From NCBI GenBank assembly GCA_002085155.1, contig NASX01000045.1, positions 5,122 through 38,464 on the forward strand: a stretch of 33,343 nucleotides of DNA. Reading direction: 5' to 3'. The stretch is from Sorangiineae bacterium NIC37A_2 (GTDB lineage: Bacteria > Myxococcota_A > Polyangia > Polyangiales > Polyangiaceae). This document shows positions 11,505-24,534 of this stretch, piece by piece; the first letter of the stretch is position 1, and every line of letters starts with the position of its first letter. Position numbers and translations under genes: made by a program. A model generated the notes under the pieces. It had not been told where the DNA came from and did not search any database. It saw only the letters and a list, made by a program, of their open reading frames with translations.

Positions 11505-12662
11505 TCAGCCTCGTGAGGCCGCCCGGAGCAGGGCCTCGATCTCGGGCAGACCGAGATCGAGGCGCTCGCCGAGGCGAAGCCGGCGCGCGCTCTTGAGTCC
11601 CGCCACGATGCGCTGAATTTGCGCGTCCGTGAGGGAGAGCTCGTGGAGTTTCGTCGGAAGTCCGAGGTCGCGGAAGAAGGAGACGATGCGCGCGAGGGTG
11701 AGCTGAGCCACTTCTTCTGGTTCCCCTTGGAGTTCGAAGACCCGGGCGCCCAACTGTGCCAGGCGTTCCTTCTTCTTCTCGAAGCGCGCTTGGTACACGA
11801 CCGGCAGGACGTATGTCAGCGTGTCGGCGTGCTCGATACCGAGCAGCGCCGTGAGCTCGTGGCCAATGAAGTGCGTCGCCCAATCTTCCGGCGTTCCCGT
11901 CGAGACCAGACCCCCCTGGGCGAGACTCGAGGCCCATAAGAAGTTCGTGAGGGTGCTGTCCTTGACCTGGTCGCGGATGAGTTCTTCCCCGACGGAGAGG
12001 AGGGACTTGAGGAGGGCCTCGGCGAGGTGCTGTTGGACGATATCCTCGGTCGGATAGGTCGCTGTTTGCTCCAGGACGTGCACGAAGGCGTCCGCGATGC
12101 CGCGGGCGAGGGCAGGGCGCGGTAAGCTGCGGAGGAGGGCCGGATCGAGGATAGCGAACCTGGGGACCGTGCCCGGGTGGATGTAGACGAGCTTTTGAGC
12201 CGTGCGAGCGCTGCTCATGGCGGCGATGCCGTTCGATTCCGACCCGGTTCCGGCGCGGGTGACGACGGCGCCCACGGGGAGGGGACTTTCCGGCTTCTTC
12301 CCCCGCGTGAGGAGAGTGAAGCTGTCTTCTTCGGCTCGCACCGTGGCGGCCACGAACTTGGCGAGGTCGATGACCGATCCGCCACCCACGGCCAAAATGA
12401 ACTCGGCGCCGAAGCTGCGAGCGCTCTCAGTGATCGGATCGGCGTCTTCGATGGTCGGGTTGGCGCGGACGCCGAAATGCTCGATGTACTCTCTGCCCGA
12501 GAGCGCCGCGCGGACCGCATCGAGGGCTCCACTCGCCTGAGCCGAAGCGCCCGCATAGATGCACAAGATCTTCTTTCCCCCCGGCACGAGCGAAGAGAGA
12601 GCCTCAAGCTGACCAGATCCGACGAGGAGGCGAGTAGGAACGTGATATTCGAACGGGCGCAT
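11505..12662 (-). CDS. YqhD-like iron/zinc-dependent aldehyde reductase
   Basis: A 385-residue group III alcohol dehydrogenase. The NAD(P)-binding GGGS motif is at 93-96 (VGGGSVIDLAKF). Metal ligands line up with those of E. coli YqhD at a constant offset: Asp191 and His195 in IADAFVHVLEQ, His264 in DWATHFIGHEL and His278 in GIEHADTL. YqhD reduces short-chain aldehydes with NADPH. The phrase DWATHFIGHELTALLGIEHA is very close to YqhD as I recall it, so aldehyde reduction is the best guess. The gene follows the alpha/beta hydrolase after 56 bases on the same strand and is probably the last gene of the acyl-activation cluster, where it could supply or remove an aldehyde or alcohol intermediate. 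Confidence 0.85.
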   Translation of the reverse strand: MRPFEYHVPTRLLVGSGQLEALSSLVPGGKKILCIYAGASAQASGALDAVRAALSGREYIEHFGVRANPTIEDADPITESARSFGAEFILAVGGGSVIDLAKFVAATVRAEEDSFTLLTRGKKPESPLPVGAVVTRAGTGSESNGIAAMSSARTAQKLVYIHPGTVPRFAILDPALLRSLPRPALARGIADAFVHVLEQTATYPTEDIVQQHLAEALLKSLLSVGEELIRDQVKDSTLTNFLWASSLAQGGLVSTGTPEDWATHFIGHELTALLGIEHADTLTYVLPVVYQARFEKKKERLAQLGARVFELQGEPEEVAQLTLARIVSFFRDLGLPTKLHELSLTDAQIQRIVAGLKSARRLRLGERLDLGLPEIEALLRAASRG

Positions 12663-12718
12663 GGTCTTCGAGCCTATCTCCGAGTCATCCTACCGCCGGA
12701 GCCACGAAAGAAAACTCG

Positions 12719-13567
12719 CTATTTCCAGAGGAATTCTCTCGCCCGGGTGAGAGCAGGTTCGTGCTCGAGGAGCGCTTCGTGTTCGAGGCCGGGGAACTCG
12801 AAATAGGAGCTTGAGCCGGTCTGACTGAGGAGCCGGGCCGCGGCTTTGCCCTGATCGGGGCCGTGAAATGCTTCATCTGCGCTCCCCTGCAGCACAAGGC
12901 TTCGGGATTTTACGGAGGGCAGGAAAGGCGCCATCTGGTAGTCGTCTCCGAGGCCCAGCCGTGCGAGCGGCGAAGGACGGATCATCACGAGATCATAACC
13001 TGGTGCGAGCAGCGTGAGACTCGCCGGCGTTCGCCCTCGTTCGCTCAGGTCGGCTGTCAGGCGTCCGGCGAAGTAACCACCGATGGAGAAGCCGATGAGG
13101 TGAAGTCGAGCGGGTGTGATCCCGTGCTGTCTCTCGAGGGCCTCGACAATGGCGAGGTTGTCCTCGGCGATCCGATCGACCTCGGCGGAGCCCGGGTTCC
13201 CGGAATAGCTGCGATAGGAGAGGGCGGCCAGATGGGCGTCGTGATCGGCCCGGAGCGCCTCGAGGACCTGCATGCCTCTCTTGAGTTGCGTTTTGTCGTT
13301 TCCGGGAAGGTAGAGGAGCCACGGCCCGTCTTTCGAGCGAGCGCTCGCGCGGGCGATCTGGATCGACATGTTGGGAGCGACCGTGAGGGTCTCGAGCTTC
13401 CACGATGAGCTGCGGAGGGCGGCCTGCTCTTCCGCTAGCATCGGTCCACTCGCGTAATGAAATCGGTAACGCTCGCGGCCGAAGACGCGCGCTCGGAGTC
13501 CCGAGACCTCGAAGAGCGCTGCGAGCACGACGAGGCCGGTGAAGGAAAGTAAAATGAGCCGCTTCAT
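12719..13567 (-). CDS. alpha/beta hydrolase, N-terminally membrane-anchored
   Basis: A 282-residue protein with one hydrophobic segment at residues 3-20 (RLILLSFTGLVVLAALFE) and no obvious cleavage site, so it is probably anchored with its catalytic domain outside the cytoplasm. The hydrolase domain has an oxyanion-area YLPGN (87-90), nucleophile Ser161 in IGFSIGGY, acid Asp231 in QGSADEAFH and base His263 in GLEHEALLEH. Esterase, thioesterase or lipase activity is likely; the substrate is unknown. The ATG overlaps the stop of the upstream acyltransferase by four bases (ATGA), so it is translationally coupled to the acyl cluster and may trim or release an acyl product. Confidence 0.82.
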   Translation of the reverse strand: MKRLILLSFTGLVVLAALFEVSGLRARVFGRERYRFHYASGPMLAEEQAALRSSSWKLETLTVAPNMSIQIARASARSKDGPWLLYLPGNDKTQLKRGMQVLEALRADHDAHLAALSYRSYSGNPGSAEVDRIAEDNLAIVEALERQHGITPARLHLIGFSIGGYFAGRLTADLSERGRTPASLTLLAPGYDLVMIRPSPLARLGLGDDYQMAPFLPSVKSRSLVLQGSADEAFHGPDQGKAAARLLSQTGSSSYFEFPGLEHEALLEHEPALTRAREFLWK

Positions 13568-14136
13568 CGCTTCACGGTAGCGGGGTTGCCTGAGACGAAG
13601 GCGCCCGCTGGTACCTCCTTGTTCACCATCGCGCGGGCGTCGACGATGGCTCCTGCCCCGACGCGGACCCCTGGACAGATCAGCGCTCCTGGTCCGATTT
13701 TCACGCCGCTCTCGATGGTCACCGGCATGCGCTGCAGGGCTCCGGCGCGGTGTTCCTTCGGGCCGATCTCGTGGGTGCTGGTGAGAATCATGGCGCCCGG
13801 AGCGAGATGGACGTCATCGCCGATCTCGATGTGTTCTTGGAGATCGAGGACCACCTTGTCTTCAATGAGACAGTTGCGTCCGATGCTCAGCTTCTTGAGC
13901 ACACGTGGGCGCTGCCCGTTCAGATAAGGCAGTGTGAGGAAACGCGTCTCGGGGCCGATCTCTGCTCCGAGGCTGCGCAGCCACTCAGCGCGCGTTTCTG
14001 GCGTCGCGTCGGGGAAGAGCAATTTGAGCACGCGCAGCCAGAGAAGCTCGAAATGGATGCCGCGCGTCTCTTCCCAGACGACGAGCTTGATCCTGGCTCT
14101 AATGCTCTCTTCGGGATTTTTTGAAGCGGGCTCCAA
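13564..14136 (-). CDS. left-handed beta-helix (hexapeptide) acyltransferase B
   Basis: A 190-residue O- or N-acyltransferase of the trimeric hexapeptide-repeat type. Residues about 82-185 are hexad repeats: IGRNCLIEDKVVLDL, IEIGDDVHLAPGAMI, VKIGPGALICPGVRVGAGAI. A closing VPAGAFVSGNPA is typical of sugar and maltose acetyltransferases of the LacA/NodL type. The probable catalytic base is His122 in LTSTHEIG. About 80 helical residues precede the repeat domain. Such enzymes normally use acetyl-CoA or acyl-ACP. Its start lies 38 bases inside the end of the AMP ligase gene, so the two are coupled. Confidence 0.87.
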   Translation of the reverse strand: MEPASKNPEESIRARIKLVVWEETRGIHFELLWLRVLKLLFPDATPETRAEWLRSLGAEIGPETRFLTLPYLNGQRPRVLKKLSIGRNCLIEDKVVLDLQEHIEIGDDVHLAPGAMILTSTHEIGPKEHRAGALQRMPVTIESGVKIGPGALICPGVRVGAGAIVDARAMVNKEVPAGAFVSGNPATVKR

Positions 14137-15484
14137 ATTGATCCTCCGTGATGATCTCCACGGCGCGTGGGATCTGGTAGGCGGCGAGGCGCGAGCGACA
14201 GAAGGCGAACATGCGCACCTTGAATTCGGCGAGGGGCTCGGGTTCGATCAAGTTGAAGCGCGCCGCGACCATTTGACCGGTCATTGGGTTCGGCTTCCCG
14301 AAAACGCTCACGTCGCGAACGTTCGGCATCTCGAGCAAACAGCCCTCGACTTCGGTCGGATAGACCTTCTGGCCGCCGACGTTGATGAGATCGGTCTTTC
14401 TTCCGAGGATGCGGAAATAGGGACCGTCGACTTCGACCGCGTCTTGGGTGTTGAGCCAGCCGTCCTCGTCGAACAGGTCCGGGGCGTTGAGGTACCCGAG
14501 CATCGCCGTCTCGGCTTTCACCCAGAGGATCCCGTCGCGCACGTCGACCTGGAAACCTTCTTGGCTGAACTCGATCCAGGGCGAGTTCGAGTCCTTTGAG
14601 CGCGAGCGCAAGACACCAACTTCGCTCATGCCGTAGGTCTGCACGAGTGCAACCTCGGGGAACGTTGCGTGGAGCCGCGCCAGAGTCCCCGCCGGCATCG
14701 GCTCGGTGCCGTAGGCGATGACGCGTAATGAACTGAGGTCGTGCTTCTCGACGAGGCCTGAGATGAGGAGAAGATTCAGGAAGGTCGGTGACGTCGGCAG
14801 CGTGTGTACACGGTGGCGCTCAATCGTCTCAACGACCGTCGCCGGATCGCGGCGAGCGACGGTGACGAGAGTACCGCCGCTCGTGAGTGTGCTGAGGAGG
14901 GTGTCCACGCCGCCGATGTGATCGAACAACAGGAAACAGAGCGTGACCTTCTTTTGACGAACCTTCTCGAACTTCTTCAGGATCTGGGCGAAGTCGTGGA
15001 GGATGCCCTTGGGCTGTCCCGTCGAGCCTGAAGAGAAGATGACGAGGCCAGGTGACTTTCGTTCCCTTAGCTTTTCGAGGGTCTTGTTTGTGCGGTGGAC
15101 GGGCCGAAGGTCGGTGACGGTTCGGTTGTCTTCCTCATCGAACTCAAAGAGCCACTCTGCCTCCGCGACTCCGAGGCAGGCGTCCCTCTGCGCGCGCATT
15201 TCTCGCACCATCGGGAGAGCGACCGCCTGGGCCTCGATCAGCGCCAAGATGAGCGCTGTGGCGCTGAGCGTGAACGCACCTTCTACGGCGACAACGTCGC
15301 CCGCCCCGATCCCCCGCTGTCCAAGTTCGGCGCCAAATCGCTCCTTAGCCTCGAGAAGGTCTCGATAGCTTGCGACTCGCTCTCCGGACGCCGTCGGGTA
15401 AACGAGCGCCTTGTCCTCGCCGAAGGACTTGAGGCGCTCGAAGAACCAATCGTTCAAAGCGCGTTCCCTCTCAGGTGATGCCAC
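14099..15484 (-). CDS. AMP-forming acyl ligase (stand-alone adenylation domain)
   Basis: A 461-residue adenylate-forming enzyme that would activate a carboxylic acid as acyl-AMP and pass it to a thiol, here most likely the neighbouring carrier protein. Motifs: phosphate loop FSSGSTGQPKG (150-160), aromatic motif YGMSE (284-288), GYLNAPD (330-336), DGWLNTQD with Asp348, hinge-region GRKTDLINVGGQKVYPTEVE (361-380), and a C-terminal FKKSRRE carrying the likely catalytic Lys. At about 460 residues it is shorter than typical acyl-CoA synthetases, the loss being in the N-terminal half. The start is inferred as the GTG at 15484, overlapping the upstream reductase by 14 bases; a TTG at 15457 is an alternative. 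Substrate cannot be read from sequence. Confidence 0.85.
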   Translation of the reverse strand: MASPERERALNDWFFERLKSFGEDKALVYPTASGERVASYRDLLEAKERFGAELGQRGIGAGDVVAVEGAFTLSATALILALIEAQAVALPMVREMRAQRDACLGVAEAEWLFEFDEEDNRTVTDLRPVHRTNKTLEKLRERKSPGLVIFSSGSTGQPKGILHDFAQILKKFEKVRQKKVTLCFLLFDHIGGVDTLLSTLTSGGTLVTVARRDPATVVETIERHRVHTLPTSPTFLNLLLISGLVEKHDLSSLRVIAYGTEPMPAGTLARLHATFPEVALVQTYGMSEVGVLRSRSKDSNSPWIEFSQEGFQVDVRDGILWVKAETAMLGYLNAPDLFDEDGWLNTQDAVEVDGPYFRILGRKTDLINVGGQKVYPTEVEGCLLEMPNVRDVSVFGKPNPMTGQMVAARFNLIEPEPLAEFKVRMFAFCRSRLAAYQIPRAVEIITEDQFGARFKKSRREH

Positions 15485-16178
15485 CGAGATAGATGACCTG
15501 GCCGGTGATGTTGTCGCTGGCCGGGGAGATGAAGAAGTCGCAGACGTTCGCACAGTCCTCGGGGGTCCCGAGACGCTTGATCGCTAGGCCATTCACGACC
15601 TCGTCGACCTTCTCCTTCGGAACACCGCGGATCATGTCGGTCATGATCGGGGTCGCGCCGAAGGAGTTGCAGGTGATACCCCACTGACCAAGCTCAAAGG
15701 CCAAGATGCGCGTGAACGTCACGACGGCGCTCTTCGAGGCTGCATAAACCGCCTCGCCAGCGAGCGCGATCGGCGCGACGATCGTCGTGAAGTTCACGAT
15801 CCGTCCCCATCGCTTCCTCATCATGACCTTCGCCGCTTCTCGGCAGACAAGCATGGTGCCTGTTACGTTCACCTCGAGCATCCGATTGGCCGAGGCAGCT
15901 GGCGTGAGCAGCACGTGGTTCATACTGGCGATCGCGGCATTGTTCAGCACCACGTCGAGCCGGCCGTGGCGCTTGACGATATCGGCCACCATCGTGCGCA
16001 CGCCCTTCTCATCAGCCACGTCCACGAAATGGTGGTGGTAAAAGGGGCTATCGATGTCGCATTCCTTGCGGCTACAGCCTTCGACGAGATAGCCCTGGTT
16101 GATGTAGTATTCAGCTAAGTATCTGCCGATTCCCTTGCGAGTGCCGGTGATGAGCATGACCTTCTTGGCGTCGGTCAT
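15471..16178 (-). CDS. short-chain dehydrogenase/reductase (FabG-like)
   Basis: A 235-residue classical SDR. It has the cofactor loop TGTRKGIG (11-18), NNA (79-81), and the catalytic Tyr145/Lys149 pair in YAASK. The position 13 residues before the Tyr, normally the catalytic Ser, is Thr132 (VNFTTIVA), which usually keeps the hydroxyl function. Arg14 in the glycine loop and SRKE after the second strand suggest NADPH. FabG-like enzymes reduce beta-keto groups on carrier proteins, and the adjacent carrier protein supports an ACP-bound substrate. No ketosynthase is present to make a beta-keto acyl-ACP, so the substrate may come from primary metabolism. The ATG overlaps the carrier protein stop by four bases (ATGA). 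Confidence 0.87.
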   Translation of the reverse strand: MTDAKKVMLITGTRKGIGRYLAEYYINQGYLVEGCSRKECDIDSPFYHHHFVDVADEKGVRTMVADIVKRHGRLDVVLNNAAIASMNHVLLTPAASANRMLEVNVTGTMLVCREAAKVMMRKRWGRIVNFTTIVAPIALAGEAVYAASKSAVVTFTRILAFELGQWGITCNSFGATPIMTDMIRGVPKEKVDEVVNGLAIKRLGTPEDCANVCDFFISPASDNITGQVIYLGGIT

Positions 16179-16480
16179 GCAGCTTTTGCCTCCTCGATCG
16201 TCGCAATGACGTGGGCGGCGAGGACCCCGACCGTTCGGAAGGGGCTATTTTTTGCGGACATCGCCTTGTCGTTGGCCAAGATGACGGAGACGCCGTGTTC
16301 TGCTTCGACGATCTGTTCGATCTCAACGATGAGCGAGACGACGCCGAGGGAGTCGATGATCGCGTCGGGGCCGACGAGCACGCTCTCGGCGCTCAGGTTC
16401 TCCGGCAAGGGCTCACCGATCTGATCGAAGACGCTCTGAACGGCCCTTAAGACGATTTGTTCTGCTGTATTTGCATCCAT
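16175..16480 (-). CDS. acyl carrier protein-like
   Basis: A 101-residue carrier protein with the phosphopantetheine attachment motif: Ser44 in IIDSLGVVSLIVEIEQ. The flanking helices (AEQIVLRAVQSVFDQIGE and the acidic helix after the DSL) fit a four-helix carrier fold. It is longer than a fatty-acid ACP, with an insertion near 63-80 (HGVSVILANDKAMSAKNSP). The ATG at 16480 follows GAG seven bases upstream. An in-frame upstream extension to 16567 would overlap the previous gene and is unlikely. Phosphopantetheinylation must come from an enzyme elsewhere; none is visible here. The stop overlaps the reductase start. Confidence 0.88.
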   Translation of the reverse strand: MDANTAEQIVLRAVQSVFDQIGEPLPENLSAESVLVGPDAIIDSLGVVSLIVEIEQIVEAEHGVSVILANDKAMSAKNSPFRTVGVLAAHVIATIEEAKAA

Positions 16481-16485
16481 GGCTA

Positions 16486-16520
16486 CTCGATTTCTTGTTC
16501 TCGATTGCTGCTCTCGATTG
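16486..16520 (-). repeat. three AATCGAG repeats upstream of the carrier protein
   Basis: The 40-base gap before the carrier protein gene holds three copies of AATCGAG (minus strand) spaced 13 and 14 bases apart, with partly similar spacers. The last copy supplies the GAG that serves as ribosome-binding site. It could be a small slippage product or a site affecting translation of the carrier protein. Confidence 0.5.
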
Positions 16521-17084
16521 TTAGCCTTGCCGCCAATTGGCGATAGAGACCTTGCGGTTGCCGACAACGAGCAAATTGGCTCCGACGTCGCTCTTCACTT
16601 CCGTGAGCGGTCCGATGATGGTTCCGGGGCCGATCGTCACCCCGGGATGGATCGTCGCGCGCGCACCGATCCAGGACCCAGTCCCGATGCGGATGGGCTC
16701 TCTCGCGAGGAAGGTCACCTCGTGCCCTACGGACACATGGTCCTCGATGATGAGGTCTGCCCCGAGCTCGAAGCGACTGCGCACATTGAATCCGCAGCGT
16801 TCACCGATCTGGAGGTGCTTCTTTGCGTCGCCTTCGAAATGGGGAATGCCCCAGAAAAGGGAAGTCCGGCCGAGGCGGACCCCGGCGGCGCGCAACGAAG
16901 CCGTGATCAGGCGCGCGCCCACAAAAGATGGGAAAAGTCCGAAGACGGATTCGAGCAGGCGGAGGGCTCGAGGAGTCGCCAGATCGTGAACCGAGGCACT
17001 GTTCGGCTCACTTTTTGCGATCATGGAATCCACTCGCGAGTAGCTTAACGAAAGGCGTCCGAGCTCTCCACACTCCATTTTCAT
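16521..17084 (-). CDS. left-handed beta-helix (hexapeptide) acyltransferase A
   Basis: A protein of about 187 residues, first gene of the acyl cluster. A helical N-terminal part (RALRLLESVFGLFPSFVGAR and following) leads into hexapeptide repeats: LQIGERCGFNV, FELGADLIIEDHVSVGH, IRIGTGSWIGARATIHPGVT and IGPGTIIGPL. The likely active-site His lies in SVGHEVTFL. It is related in architecture to acyltransferase B downstream but clearly different in sequence, so the two probably act on different acceptors or positions. The start is uncertain: ATG 17084 is used here. GTG 17111 (with AGG six bases upstream), ATG 17078 and ATG 17024 are also in frame. The GTG would lie inside the inverted repeat at 17103-17143. 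Confidence 0.83.
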   Translation of the reverse strand: MKMECGELGRLSLSYSRVDSMIAKSEPNSASVHDLATPRALRLLESVFGLFPSFVGARLITASLRAAGVRLGRTSLFWGIPHFEGDAKKHLQIGERCGFNVRSRFELGADLIIEDHVSVGHEVTFLAREPIRIGTGSWIGARATIHPGVTIGPGTIIGPLTEVKSDVGANLLVVGNRKVSIANWRQG

Positions 17085-17102
17085 TTTCTCTATGATTGAA
17101 AC

Positions 17103-17143
17103 GACCGACACCCACCACCTATGTGCGGAGGCAAGTGTCGGTC
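17103..17143. promoter_or_regulatory. 9-bp inverted repeat, candidate operator
   Basis: GACCGACAC at 17103-17111 and its exact complement GTGTCGGTC at 17135-17143 are separated by 23 bases. They sit in the divergent region between acyltransferase A (minus) and the glutaredoxin gene (plus). The arm spacing centre-to-centre is about 32 bases, or three helical turns. A dimeric repressor site is possible; no regulator gene is nearby. Confidence 0.4.
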
Positions 17144-22362: not shown

Positions 22363-23457
22363 TCACTTCGGCGCGCCGGGCCGCGGAGAGACTCTGAGCA
22401 GCCACTCGAGCCCAAAGCGGTAGTTGCTCCCGGCCCAGACGCGAGCCCAGAGCCACCAAAGGAGCCATGTGGCGCCGATAGTGAGGAGCGTCATGGTCGG
22501 CGACAGCCGATGATCCAAGCCCCATCTTCCGAAGAGCTCACGGAAGAGCACCACGTGTACGACGAGCAGGGTGAGAGAGGTCCGTCCAAACAGGACGAGC
22601 GGATGTGTGCTTCGAGGTGGCGAGAGGCTTTGGGCTACGCGCAATAGGACAATACCGATCCCGCTCAGGCCGAAAATGAGCGCCGGGCTTGCGGGATAGA
22701 ACTCGAAGCTCGAGATCGCGCGCCAGGGAAGCAGGCGAGCGGCCCGCCCGAGAAGAAGCCCCGGCAAACTCGCGCAGAGAGCGAGCCCGAGACACGACAG
22801 GCCGAGCGCGAGCAGTGGTCCCTTTTGACCTGCTCGGAACAAGCGACCTGCGATGAGCCCGAGCACCGCTGCCGCGAGCCACGGAAAAAGCGGAAAATGT
22901 CCTTCGAACAAGGCCAGGCGAAAGAAACCTGCCCCGGTCCTACCGCTCATCATTGAGTTGGTGAGCTGCGCGGGAGTCTTGAGCCAAATTTGCCCGAGGA
23001 CACTGGCGAGGAGGATGCCGAGAGTGAGCGCGCAAAGACCAGGCAGATCGATCTTGCGGAGGAGAGGTGAAAGGATGAGCCAAACGCCGAGCAAGTGCAG
23101 CACGTAGAAGCTCGAGGCGCTGAACCAGCCGGGCGTGAGGAGATTCAGGGCGAGGCCGATGAGCAGGAGGCGAACGCCGCGGCCGAAATGGGCTCGAAGG
23201 CTCAGAGTTTCGCTCGCGTAAGCCGCGCCCACGCCAGCGAGCACAACGAACAGGGGTGCAGCGAGCCCCCCGAGCATATTGAGGTAGACGAGCGGGCCGA
23301 GCTCCGTTGCGTAGCGCTTGAGATCGACGAGCCAAATCCCGAGGTGTTGCTCGGTCATGAGCAGGACCGCGATCCCGCGCAGCGCGTCGAGGCGTGTGTC
23401 CCGACCGGAAGCTCCTTCGCTCCCCTTTTGTTTTTGGCCCCGGTCCATCACTTCCAT
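22363..23457 (-). CDS. multi-pass membrane acyltransferase-like protein (DUF418/DUF1624-like)
   Basis: A 364-residue inner-membrane protein with about ten hydrophobic segments. The N-terminal signature RLDALRGIAVLLMTEQHLG and the C-terminal SNYRFGLEWLLR fit the broad DUF418/DUF1624 (heparan-alpha-glucosaminide N-acetyltransferase-like, acyltransferase-3-like) group. Members move acyl groups across the membrane or modify surface sugars, but function is often unproven. A conserved-looking His in VVHVVLFRELFG lies in a late segment. It stands alone on the minus strand. The ATG at 23457 is used; an in-frame ATG at 23448 is equally possible. The 22240-22362 gap to the lipoprotein holds no gene. 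Confidence 0.75.
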   Translation of the reverse strand: MEVMDRGQKQKGSEGASGRDTRLDALRGIAVLLMTEQHLGIWLVDLKRYATELGPLVYLNMLGGLAAPLFVVLAGVGAAYASETLSLRAHFGRGVRLLLIGLALNLLTPGWFSASSFYVLHLLGVWLILSPLLRKIDLPGLCALTLGILLASVLGQIWLKTPAQLTNSMMSGRTGAGFFRLALFEGHFPLFPWLAAAVLGLIAGRLFRAGQKGPLLALGLSCLGLALCASLPGLLLGRAARLLPWRAISSFEFYPASPALIFGLSGIGIVLLRVAQSLSPPRSTHPLVLFGRTSLTLLVVHVVLFRELFGRWGLDHRLSPTMTLLTIGATWLLWWLWARVWAGSNYRFGLEWLLRVSPRPGAPK

Positions 23458-23535
23458 CGCGTCCGGCCGAGCCTTTAGCTGAATCCGCCTGCTCCGGTGA
23501 GTCCCCCTCTCTCCGGAGCTCTGTGACCCTCTCTC

Positions 23536-23613: not shown

Positions 23614-24534
23614 TCAGTAAGCCATCGAGCGGATTTCCTGGGGGCACTCAATGTCCTTGTAGACGAAGTTCGGGTTGTCGGCGGCCTCGAACCAGTCGAC
23701 GTACCACATGCAACCTTCGTACATTTCGTCGAGCCCTCGGCTTCCAAAGAGGCTCTGGCACTTCTGAGCGACGCAGTTCTTGATGCCATTCAAGTCACCG
23801 CTGCATCCGGAGCGCAGACCGCCGTACTGAGCGCCGAGCTCAGAGGAACCCTGCTGCACGCCCCAGGCCTGCCCGCACCCATAAAACGCTCCCGTACCGC
23901 CGCCCGGAATGAGGAGGTCCATCTGTCCGGCGCTGACGTCGCCGCCGATGTTCGTGCTCATCACGATCATGACCTTATCCTTGAGCGCCTGCGACCCTGG
24001 ATCGGCTCCGCCGTTGTGGCTCGAGCCGGTAAACTGGATTTGGTAACACTTGCCGCAGGCTGCGCCTTGGACGTGGCTCGCCACAAAGCCGAAGGAGACC
24101 TTGTTGCTGTACACCTTTGGCACCATCGAGTTGCACGTGGTGGCGGAACCGCCGCTGCACACGCTCTGATCGTCGGCGCTCACCTTGTTTTTGCCCGAGA
24201 CATTGCAGGTCTTCACGGGATTCCCTCCGGCGTTGTTGGCCCAGCCGCAGCTCTGTTTGCAGCAGTCCCAGTAACGACTCGCCCAGCCGTTCTGTCCACC
24301 GCTGACACTTCCCCAGGGGTTGTCGTCGCCGCGAGAACCACCGGAGCCGCTATTGCCCCCGCCGCCGTTGCCGCTTCCACCGGAACCACTATTGCCCCCG
24401 CCGCCATTGCCCGTATCGGTGCAGCGGCCGCAGCTCTTGTCACAGTAACCGTCGAGCCAGCCGTTCGGGTTGTTGCACTCGTTGCTTCCGCCGGCCTGGT
24501 TCGGATAGTGAAGAGACGCGTTTTCAAAGCGCGC
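23614..24534 (-). pseudogene. GH45-type endoglucanase frame lacking a start and signal peptide
   Basis: An open frame of 306 codons with no start codon in its first 106: it begins right after a TAA at 24535-24537, and the first ATG/GTG/TTG is the GTG at 24216, inside the catalytic domain. Frame content in order: a Cys-rich piece (ECNNPNGWLDGYCDKSCGRC), a Gly/Asn/Ser-rich linker, then a family 45 glycoside hydrolase domain. Its signatures are GWASRYWDCCKQSCGW (catalytic-base Asp), MDLLIPGGGTGAFYGCG (catalytic-acid Asp), GCMWYVDWFEAADNPNF and a closing IECPQEI. Family 45 enzymes cut cellulose internally by inversion and are secreted. Here everything needed for catalysis is present but the 5' end is missing, and stops fill the same frame upstream. 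Either a truncated pseudogene, a frameshift in upstream sequence, or an assembly error. Confidence 0.75.

Follow-up and report, generated by a model that had tools for sequence, protein, structure and literature searches.

The 33,343-nucleotide stretch analyzed here (the window) comes from contig 51 of the 5.0-Mb assembly of Sorangiineae bacterium NIC37A_2, and the ORF listing places seven minus-strand open reading frames (ORFs) at positions 11505 to 17111. A first-pass annotation had described these as a seven-gene unit for acyl activation and transfer. The seven same-strand ORFs and the families assigned to them are real, with Pfam returning hexapeptide, short-chain dehydrogenase/reductase (SDR), AMP-binding, weak alpha/beta-hydrolase, and iron-containing alcohol dehydrogenase (Fe-ADH) matches. 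The conserved unit, however, consists of six genes at 12719 to 17084 on the minus strand, which encode, in order, a left-handed beta-helix protein (LbH1), a carrier protein, an SDR, an adenylating ligase, a second left-handed beta-helix protein (LbH2), and a membrane-anchored alpha/beta hydrolase (Table 1). We limit the cassette to these six since the Fe-ADH gene adjoins them here yet lies beside no related locus.

Table 1. Genes of the six-gene cassette and the adjacent dehydrogenase gene, in window coordinates
Feature	Coordinates	Strand	Evidence or remark
LbH1, left-handed beta-helix (hexapeptide) acyltransferase-like protein	16521..17084	-	Pfam Hexapep; exact start uncertain
Carrier protein, 101 aa, phosphopantetheine site Ser44 in D-S-L	16175..16480	-	Invariant D43-S44, SPFR motif
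SDR, FabG-like reductase	15471..16178	-	Pfam adh_short_C2, 3.7e-46; N104, T132, Y145, K149
Stand-alone adenylating ligase, ANL fold	14099..15457	-	Pfam AMP-binding, 6.2e-42
LbH2, hexapeptide acyltransferase with catalytic-type His122	13564..14136	-	Pfam Hexapep, 1.5e-12
Alpha/beta hydrolase, N-terminal hydrophobic segment	12719..13567	-	Weak Pfam Abhydrolase_6/Thioesterase
YqhD-like Fe-ADH, adjacent, not a conserved cassette member	11505..12662	-	Pfam Fe-ADH; PRK15138

Most of the gene overlaps described initially were retained, namely, the ATGA junctions at 16175 to 16178 and 13564 to 13567 and the 38 bases shared by the ligase and LbH2 genes at 14099 to 14136, the last being backed by a GGAGGA located five bases before the TTG start. 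The 14-base overlap between the SDR and ligase genes was not, as it probably reflects a wrong ligase start: AGAGGGA precedes a TTG at 15457, and the protein starting there matches the N-termini of homologues. We prefer this start, which leaves a 13-base gap, to that of the longer GTG ORF reaching 15553.

We scanned for relatives of the ligase in one genome per species across about 85,000 species and recovered 11 loci. The six genes occur in identical order in L012, L013, L014, L015, L018, and L021, amid flanking genes that differ; these loci represent six other genomes, and four further genomes carry the cassette incomplete or divided. LbH1 lies about 4.4 kb from the rest of the cassette in L017, the hydrolase is missing from L019, L020 is interrupted by a contig end, and the carrier-SDR-ligase triad stands alone in L016 and L022. 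Pairwise divergences correlate for all 15 gene pairs (r = 0.58 to 0.86; Mantel p ≤ 0.01). Because the same order is kept amid different flanks and the divergence of all 15 pairs is correlated, co-conservation of the six genes is far beyond chance. Whether the genes stay together in relatives had been proposed as the check on the seven-gene unit, and its outcome was favorable for six genes and unfavorable for the seventh.

The SDR, LbH1, and the hydrolase share one phyletic pattern: a genome has orthologues of all three or of none. Among 377 genomes of the phylum, an SDR at >70% identity was found only in the window genome, with forms at 43 to 53% identity in three others, and hydrolase and LbH1 orthologues under strict thresholds were likewise confined to the window genome; seven candidates per genome were scored for the SDR and six and nine in the hydrolase and LbH1 scans, respectively, which makes these absences strong, not absolute. 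In the other cassette genomes (G400 to G409), the SDR was present in all ten, and LbH1 and the hydrolase were each present in nine. The cassette was absent from a genome of the same genus (G001), and G002 yielded no close ligase. A search of PLSDB plasmids with the SDR yielded remote SDRs only, none of them above about 35% identity, and a search of 12 relatives with 19.9 kb of DNA for an empty site or ancestral insertion point found no synteny. Co-occurrence in the phylum sample, together with presence in G400 to G409, shows that the cassette is rare and patchy and is inherited as a set, mostly in myxobacteria. The record of one of these genomes, G407 (L019/L054), carries an Actinomycetes label, but the SDR encoded there shares about 75% identity with those of Myxococcota, pointing to either lateral transfer or a mis-binned or mislabeled assembly.

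The ligase belongs to the ANL superfamily by its Pfam AMP-binding and AMP-binding_C domains, its core motifs, and its ANL fold. Its catalytic lysine region (R444-K446-K447) and TYGxSE motif are invariant, and its AlphaFold model has a mean predicted local distance difference test (pLDDT) score of 87, with aryl and acyl acid ligases as the nearest solved folds in Foldseek. By these features it is a complete ANL enzyme. A substrate prediction was attempted and abandoned, as the nearest folds are as varied as aryl, acyl, succinylbenzoyl, and oxalyl ligases, so that none could be assigned. The carrier protein had no match in Pfam or NCBIfam, and a profile search identified D-alanyl carrier proteins as its best solved relatives (E = 8e-4). 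Its Asp43-Ser44 pair and SPFR motif are invariant across 12 sequences. The SDR has the features of a classical, FabG-like enzyme (T11-G12...G16-I17-G18, N104, Y145, and K149, all invariant), with the conservative replacement of the usual serine by Thr132 in nearly all copies. It is the best conserved protein of the cassette (73 to 85% identity among Myxococcota-type cassettes; mean, 80%), while the hydrolase is the least conserved (mean, 40%).

Orthologues of LbH1 were identified at nine related loci, including that of the window, at 42 to 54% identity. They keep the invariant asparagine of the acetyltransferase motif (CGFN). The position usually held by the catalytic histidine is not histidine in most copies, and in the window copy the loop is deleted. 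We rejected the absolute statement that LbH1 always lacks a catalytic histidine, since the G404 copy has TRTH at this site. For LbH1, AlphaFold gave a poor model (pLDDT, 57), which was not used. In LbH2, the invariant His122 aligns with the catalytic histidine of maltose acetyltransferases, and the motif asparagine is replaced, mostly by glutamate. The Ser-Asp-His set of the hydrolase (Ser161, Asp231, and His263) is intact and invariant. Because a hydrophobic N-terminus is present in all eight hydrolase homologues, the sequences suggest a membrane-anchored enzyme.

Exopolysaccharide genes accompany the cassette in several relatives. In G404 the cassette is split, with the carrier-SDR-ligase triad alone on one contig and LbH1 and LbH2 adjacent to each other on a second contig, where they are flanked by genes for an OPX export protein and a WecG-type glycosyltransferase. 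This Wzx/Wzy-type exopolysaccharide locus also holds a UDP-glucose dehydrogenase, glycosyltransferases, and an initiating sugar transferase, and the hydrolase gene lies on the same contig, about 9 kb from the LbH pair. The whole cassette of G402 is bordered on one side by a DegT aminotransferase and on the other by a run of genes encoding a nonribosomal peptide synthetase (NRPS), a flippase, WecG, and a UDP-GlcNAc 2-epimerase, while that of G407 lies among glycosyltransferases, with WecG 3.8 kb from its end. In G400, the cassette is about 16 kb from the end of an exopolysaccharide cluster, and G028 carries a divergent triad in a polysaccharide locus with a flippase and a Wzz/Wzc protein. By a rough estimate, the chance that a cassette lies within 10 kb (≤10 kb) of a single WecG gene in a 6-Mb genome is about 0.3% per genome; proximity to WecG in three of about ten genomes is thus not accidental. 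The window genome has an exopolysaccharide locus related to that of G404 on contig 74 (C74), with 66% identity for the UDP-galactose epimerase, 56% for a decarboxylase-like enzyme, and 47% for WecG. No LbH pair was present in the stretch of this locus that was read. It is possible that the window cassette serves the C74 locus of its own genome.

We favor the view, at a probability of roughly 0.6, that the six genes form a stand-alone cassette for acyl decoration of a secreted (Wzx/Wzy-type) polysaccharide. On the basis of family knowledge and gene order, the ligase would adenylate a small carboxylic acid and load it onto the neighboring carrier protein, the cassette's own. The SDR would then oxidize or reduce the acyl group on its carrier, in the simplest case using NADPH to convert a 3-oxo group into a 3-hydroxy group. 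In the cytoplasm, LbH2, probably with LbH1, would pass the acyl group on to a sugar nucleotide or to the lipid-linked repeat unit of a Wzx/Wzy-type exopolysaccharide, and the membrane-anchored hydrolase may trim, edit, or hydrolyze the product. This scheme is built on the gene set, its order and co-inheritance, the exopolysaccharide genes near the cassette of several relatives, and the intact catalytic motifs of four proteins (the ligase, the SDR, LbH2, and the hydrolase); each reaction, the acyl group, and the acceptor are predictions. The first-pass suggestion, in which the genes produce a small acyl group and decorate a surface sugar with it, is partly supported, by the G404, G402, and G407 loci and not by the window itself.

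Several observations weigh against a role in polysaccharide decoration. No polysaccharide gene lies near the cassette in the window, and no polysaccharide link was seen in G401, G405, G406, or G409, where the contigs are short (28, 24, 7, and 12 kb, respectively). The serine-to-threonine change in the SDR and the missing histidine in most LbH1 copies make their catalytic roles tentative, the ligase sequence yields no substrate, and all cassette genomes found by name are environmental assemblies. Furthermore, divergent carrier-SDR-ligase triads lie beside a KAS III gene and large polyketide synthase-like genes (L050:7746-11186 and L051:8239-19415), and on a Rhizobium plasmid (L023, NZ_CP088011.1, 6741 to 14364) SDR and adenylating enzyme genes adjoin a gene with a CmlS halogenase annotation. 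Given these settings, the triad is not bound to polysaccharides.

If the cassette belonged instead to a small-molecule pathway, it would yield a free acylated amine, amide, alcohol, or ester, with the hydrolase serving to release or cleave this product, and the proximity of the cassette to polysaccharide genes would be incidental. The polyketide synthase/KAS III and halogenase-annotated settings of the divergent triads would fit such a role, as would the NRPS of 2009 aa that adjoins the G402 cassette and the presence of aryl-acid ligases and amide synthetases among the nearest ligase structures. However, conservation with the cassette extends to no transporter and to no biosynthetic megaenzyme, the LbH pair of G404 is placed amid exopolysaccharide genes, and the two conserved hexapeptide proteins are of the sugar acetyltransferase type; we therefore regard a small-molecule product as unlikely. 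That hexapeptide type also bears on the choice between a secreted polymer and a lipid or outer membrane glycolipid (lipid A, ornithine lipid, or another lipid) as the acceptor. LpxA and LpxD are hexapeptide acyltransferases with acyl-carrier donors, and NCBIfam gives weak LpxA/LpxD matches, but these are far weaker than those to the best solved LbH relatives, the maltose and galactoside acetyltransferases. With no lipid A gene linked at any locus examined, we judge lipid acylation to be very improbable.

A further alternative retains the Fe-ADH gene in a seven-gene pathway, in which the YqhD-like enzyme would make or reduce the acyl precursor, as does Fe-ADH in the tetronate genes of Vibrio cholerae. 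Tetronate-type loci combine a carrier, a ligase, an Fe-ADH, and an acetyltransferase, and in the window the Fe-ADH gene lies on the same strand as the hydrolase gene, separated from it by a 56-base gap with no terminator-like site on that strand. Its product is closest to YqhD PRK15138, at 293 bits, under the cutoff of 645. Nevertheless, an Fe-ADH homologue adjoins none of the related loci, and the genes after the hydrolase differ among most of them. We rejected Fe-ADH as a pathway member on its absence from all related loci and see little prospect for the seven-gene version. Within the polysaccharide decoration that we favor, LbH1 and LbH2 might combine in an obligate mixed trimer whose active sites are shared between them, moving a carrier-bound hydroxy acid of ketosynthase-free origin to a myxobacterial exopolysaccharide. 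This idea arises because LbH2 has the histidine without the motif asparagine and LbH1 has the asparagine, mostly without the histidine. We consider it doubtful, and it stays a hypothesis because the G404 copy of LbH1 does have the histidine.

We also compared the cassette with described systems, of which the tetronate and Dlt systems, not mentioned in the first-pass annotation, are apt counterparts. As first claimed, no ketosynthase, condensation domain, or glycosyltransferase was found by Pfam among the window ORFs scanned, and we rejected assignment to a polyketide synthase, NRPS, or fatty acid locus on the absence of ketosynthase and condensation domains; an NRPS adjoins the cassette in G402 only. 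The absence of a ketosynthase extends to the Myxococcota cassettes, although the KAS III genes beside the divergent triads of L050 and L051 make the cassette less isolated than initially described. KAS III-carrier-SDR modules acylate flagellin or O-antigen sugars, as in the a-type flagellin island of Pseudomonas. They resemble the cassette in having a carrier, a FabG-like SDR, and a hexapeptide transferase, which in these modules produce a 3-hydroxyacyl group and place it on an amino sugar. There, the acyl chain is built by KAS III, whereas in the cassette the ligase would activate an acid, and KAS III genes were found only at L050 and L051, with none in the window or next to a Myxococcota cassette.

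The V. cholerae tetronate set (VC0248-VC0252; rfbK-O/wbeK-O) consists of a carrier, the ligase WbeL (471 aa), a LuxC-like reductase, an Fe-ADH, and a hexapeptide-type transferase. In V. cholerae O1, the tetronate genes acylate the perosamine of the O-antigen (PMC3441752). By gene content, the cassette is comparable to this small dedicated set, in which a carrier, an adenylating ligase, and a hexapeptide-type transferase place a small hydroxy acid on a surface sugar without a ketosynthase. The two differ in that the tetronate redox enzymes are a LuxC-like reductase and an Fe-ADH, whereas the conserved redox enzyme of the cassette is an SDR; in that the tetronate acceptor-sugar genes lie in the same locus, whereas the cassette is usually apart from sugar genes; and in the two LbH proteins and membrane hydrolase of the cassette. 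The window ORFs scanned include no LuxC-like reductase gene, the related loci lack the Fe-ADH gene, and no polysaccharide gene was found in the window.

The Dlt system for teichoic acid D-alanylation (the ligase DltA, the carrier DltC, the MBOAT protein DltB, and DltD) likewise pairs a stand-alone ligase with a dedicated carrier for decoration of a surface polymer, and D-alanyl carrier proteins are the best solved relatives of the cassette carrier. Unlike Dlt, the cassette has an SDR and two cytoplasmic-type LbH transferases, and its ligase is closest to acyl and aryl acid ligases. The window ORFs that were scanned encode neither DltB nor DltD, and neither is a conserved feature of related loci. 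Dlt-like partners, an MBOAT and a GDSL-like protein, were seen only beside a divergent planctomycete triad (G630, L069:9327-15245), together with a GNAT and a second carrier protein; this locus looks like a hybrid of the triad with a Dlt/alginate-type O-acylation machine. By analogy, our best reading is that the six-gene cassette would act like V. cholerae tetronate or Dlt decoration without the defining features of either. We found no description of it in the open-access literature (subscription papers were outside the scope of the search), and the relevant passages of a study of the Myxococcus xanthus exopolysaccharide pathway mention acetyltransferase genes and no such cassette (PMC7484181). 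It is apparently an undescribed, conserved variant of carrier-dependent surface-sugar acylation.

Acyl groups on secreted polysaccharides influence adhesion, biofilm behavior, and phage recognition, and the few known carrier-based decoration systems are mostly from pathogens. As a portable, rare, and co-inherited set of six genes, the cassette offers a defined target for future work on the acid that is loaded, the sugar that receives it, and the role of the membrane hydrolase that travels with it. It also gives an identity to genes that annotation would label as a fatty acid reductase and acetyltransferases.

Other observations concern the surroundings of the cassette and of its divergent relatives. 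The loci L050 and L051 may represent an unstudied polyketide synthase-type locus, and L023, with its chloramphenicol-type halogenase annotation, a plasmid-borne pathway for a halogenated acyl group. OafA-like Acyltransferase_3 genes directly adjoin the cassette in L013 (10888 to 12075), L015 (10783 to 11991), and L016 (5245 to 6342), and an HGSNAT/Acyl_transf_3-like gene lies about 5 kb from it in the window (22363 to 23457); either type could encode a membrane partner. A short segment at 23404 to 23504, which lies immediately upstream of the HGSNAT-like gene and runs into its start, matches many other contigs of the same genome over about 45 to 85 bases at 75 to 91% identity and is thus a dispersed short repeat. 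Cellulase-type genes also occur near the cassette, with GH44 and GH9 in L012 (928 to 6347) and GH45 in the window (23614 to 24216).

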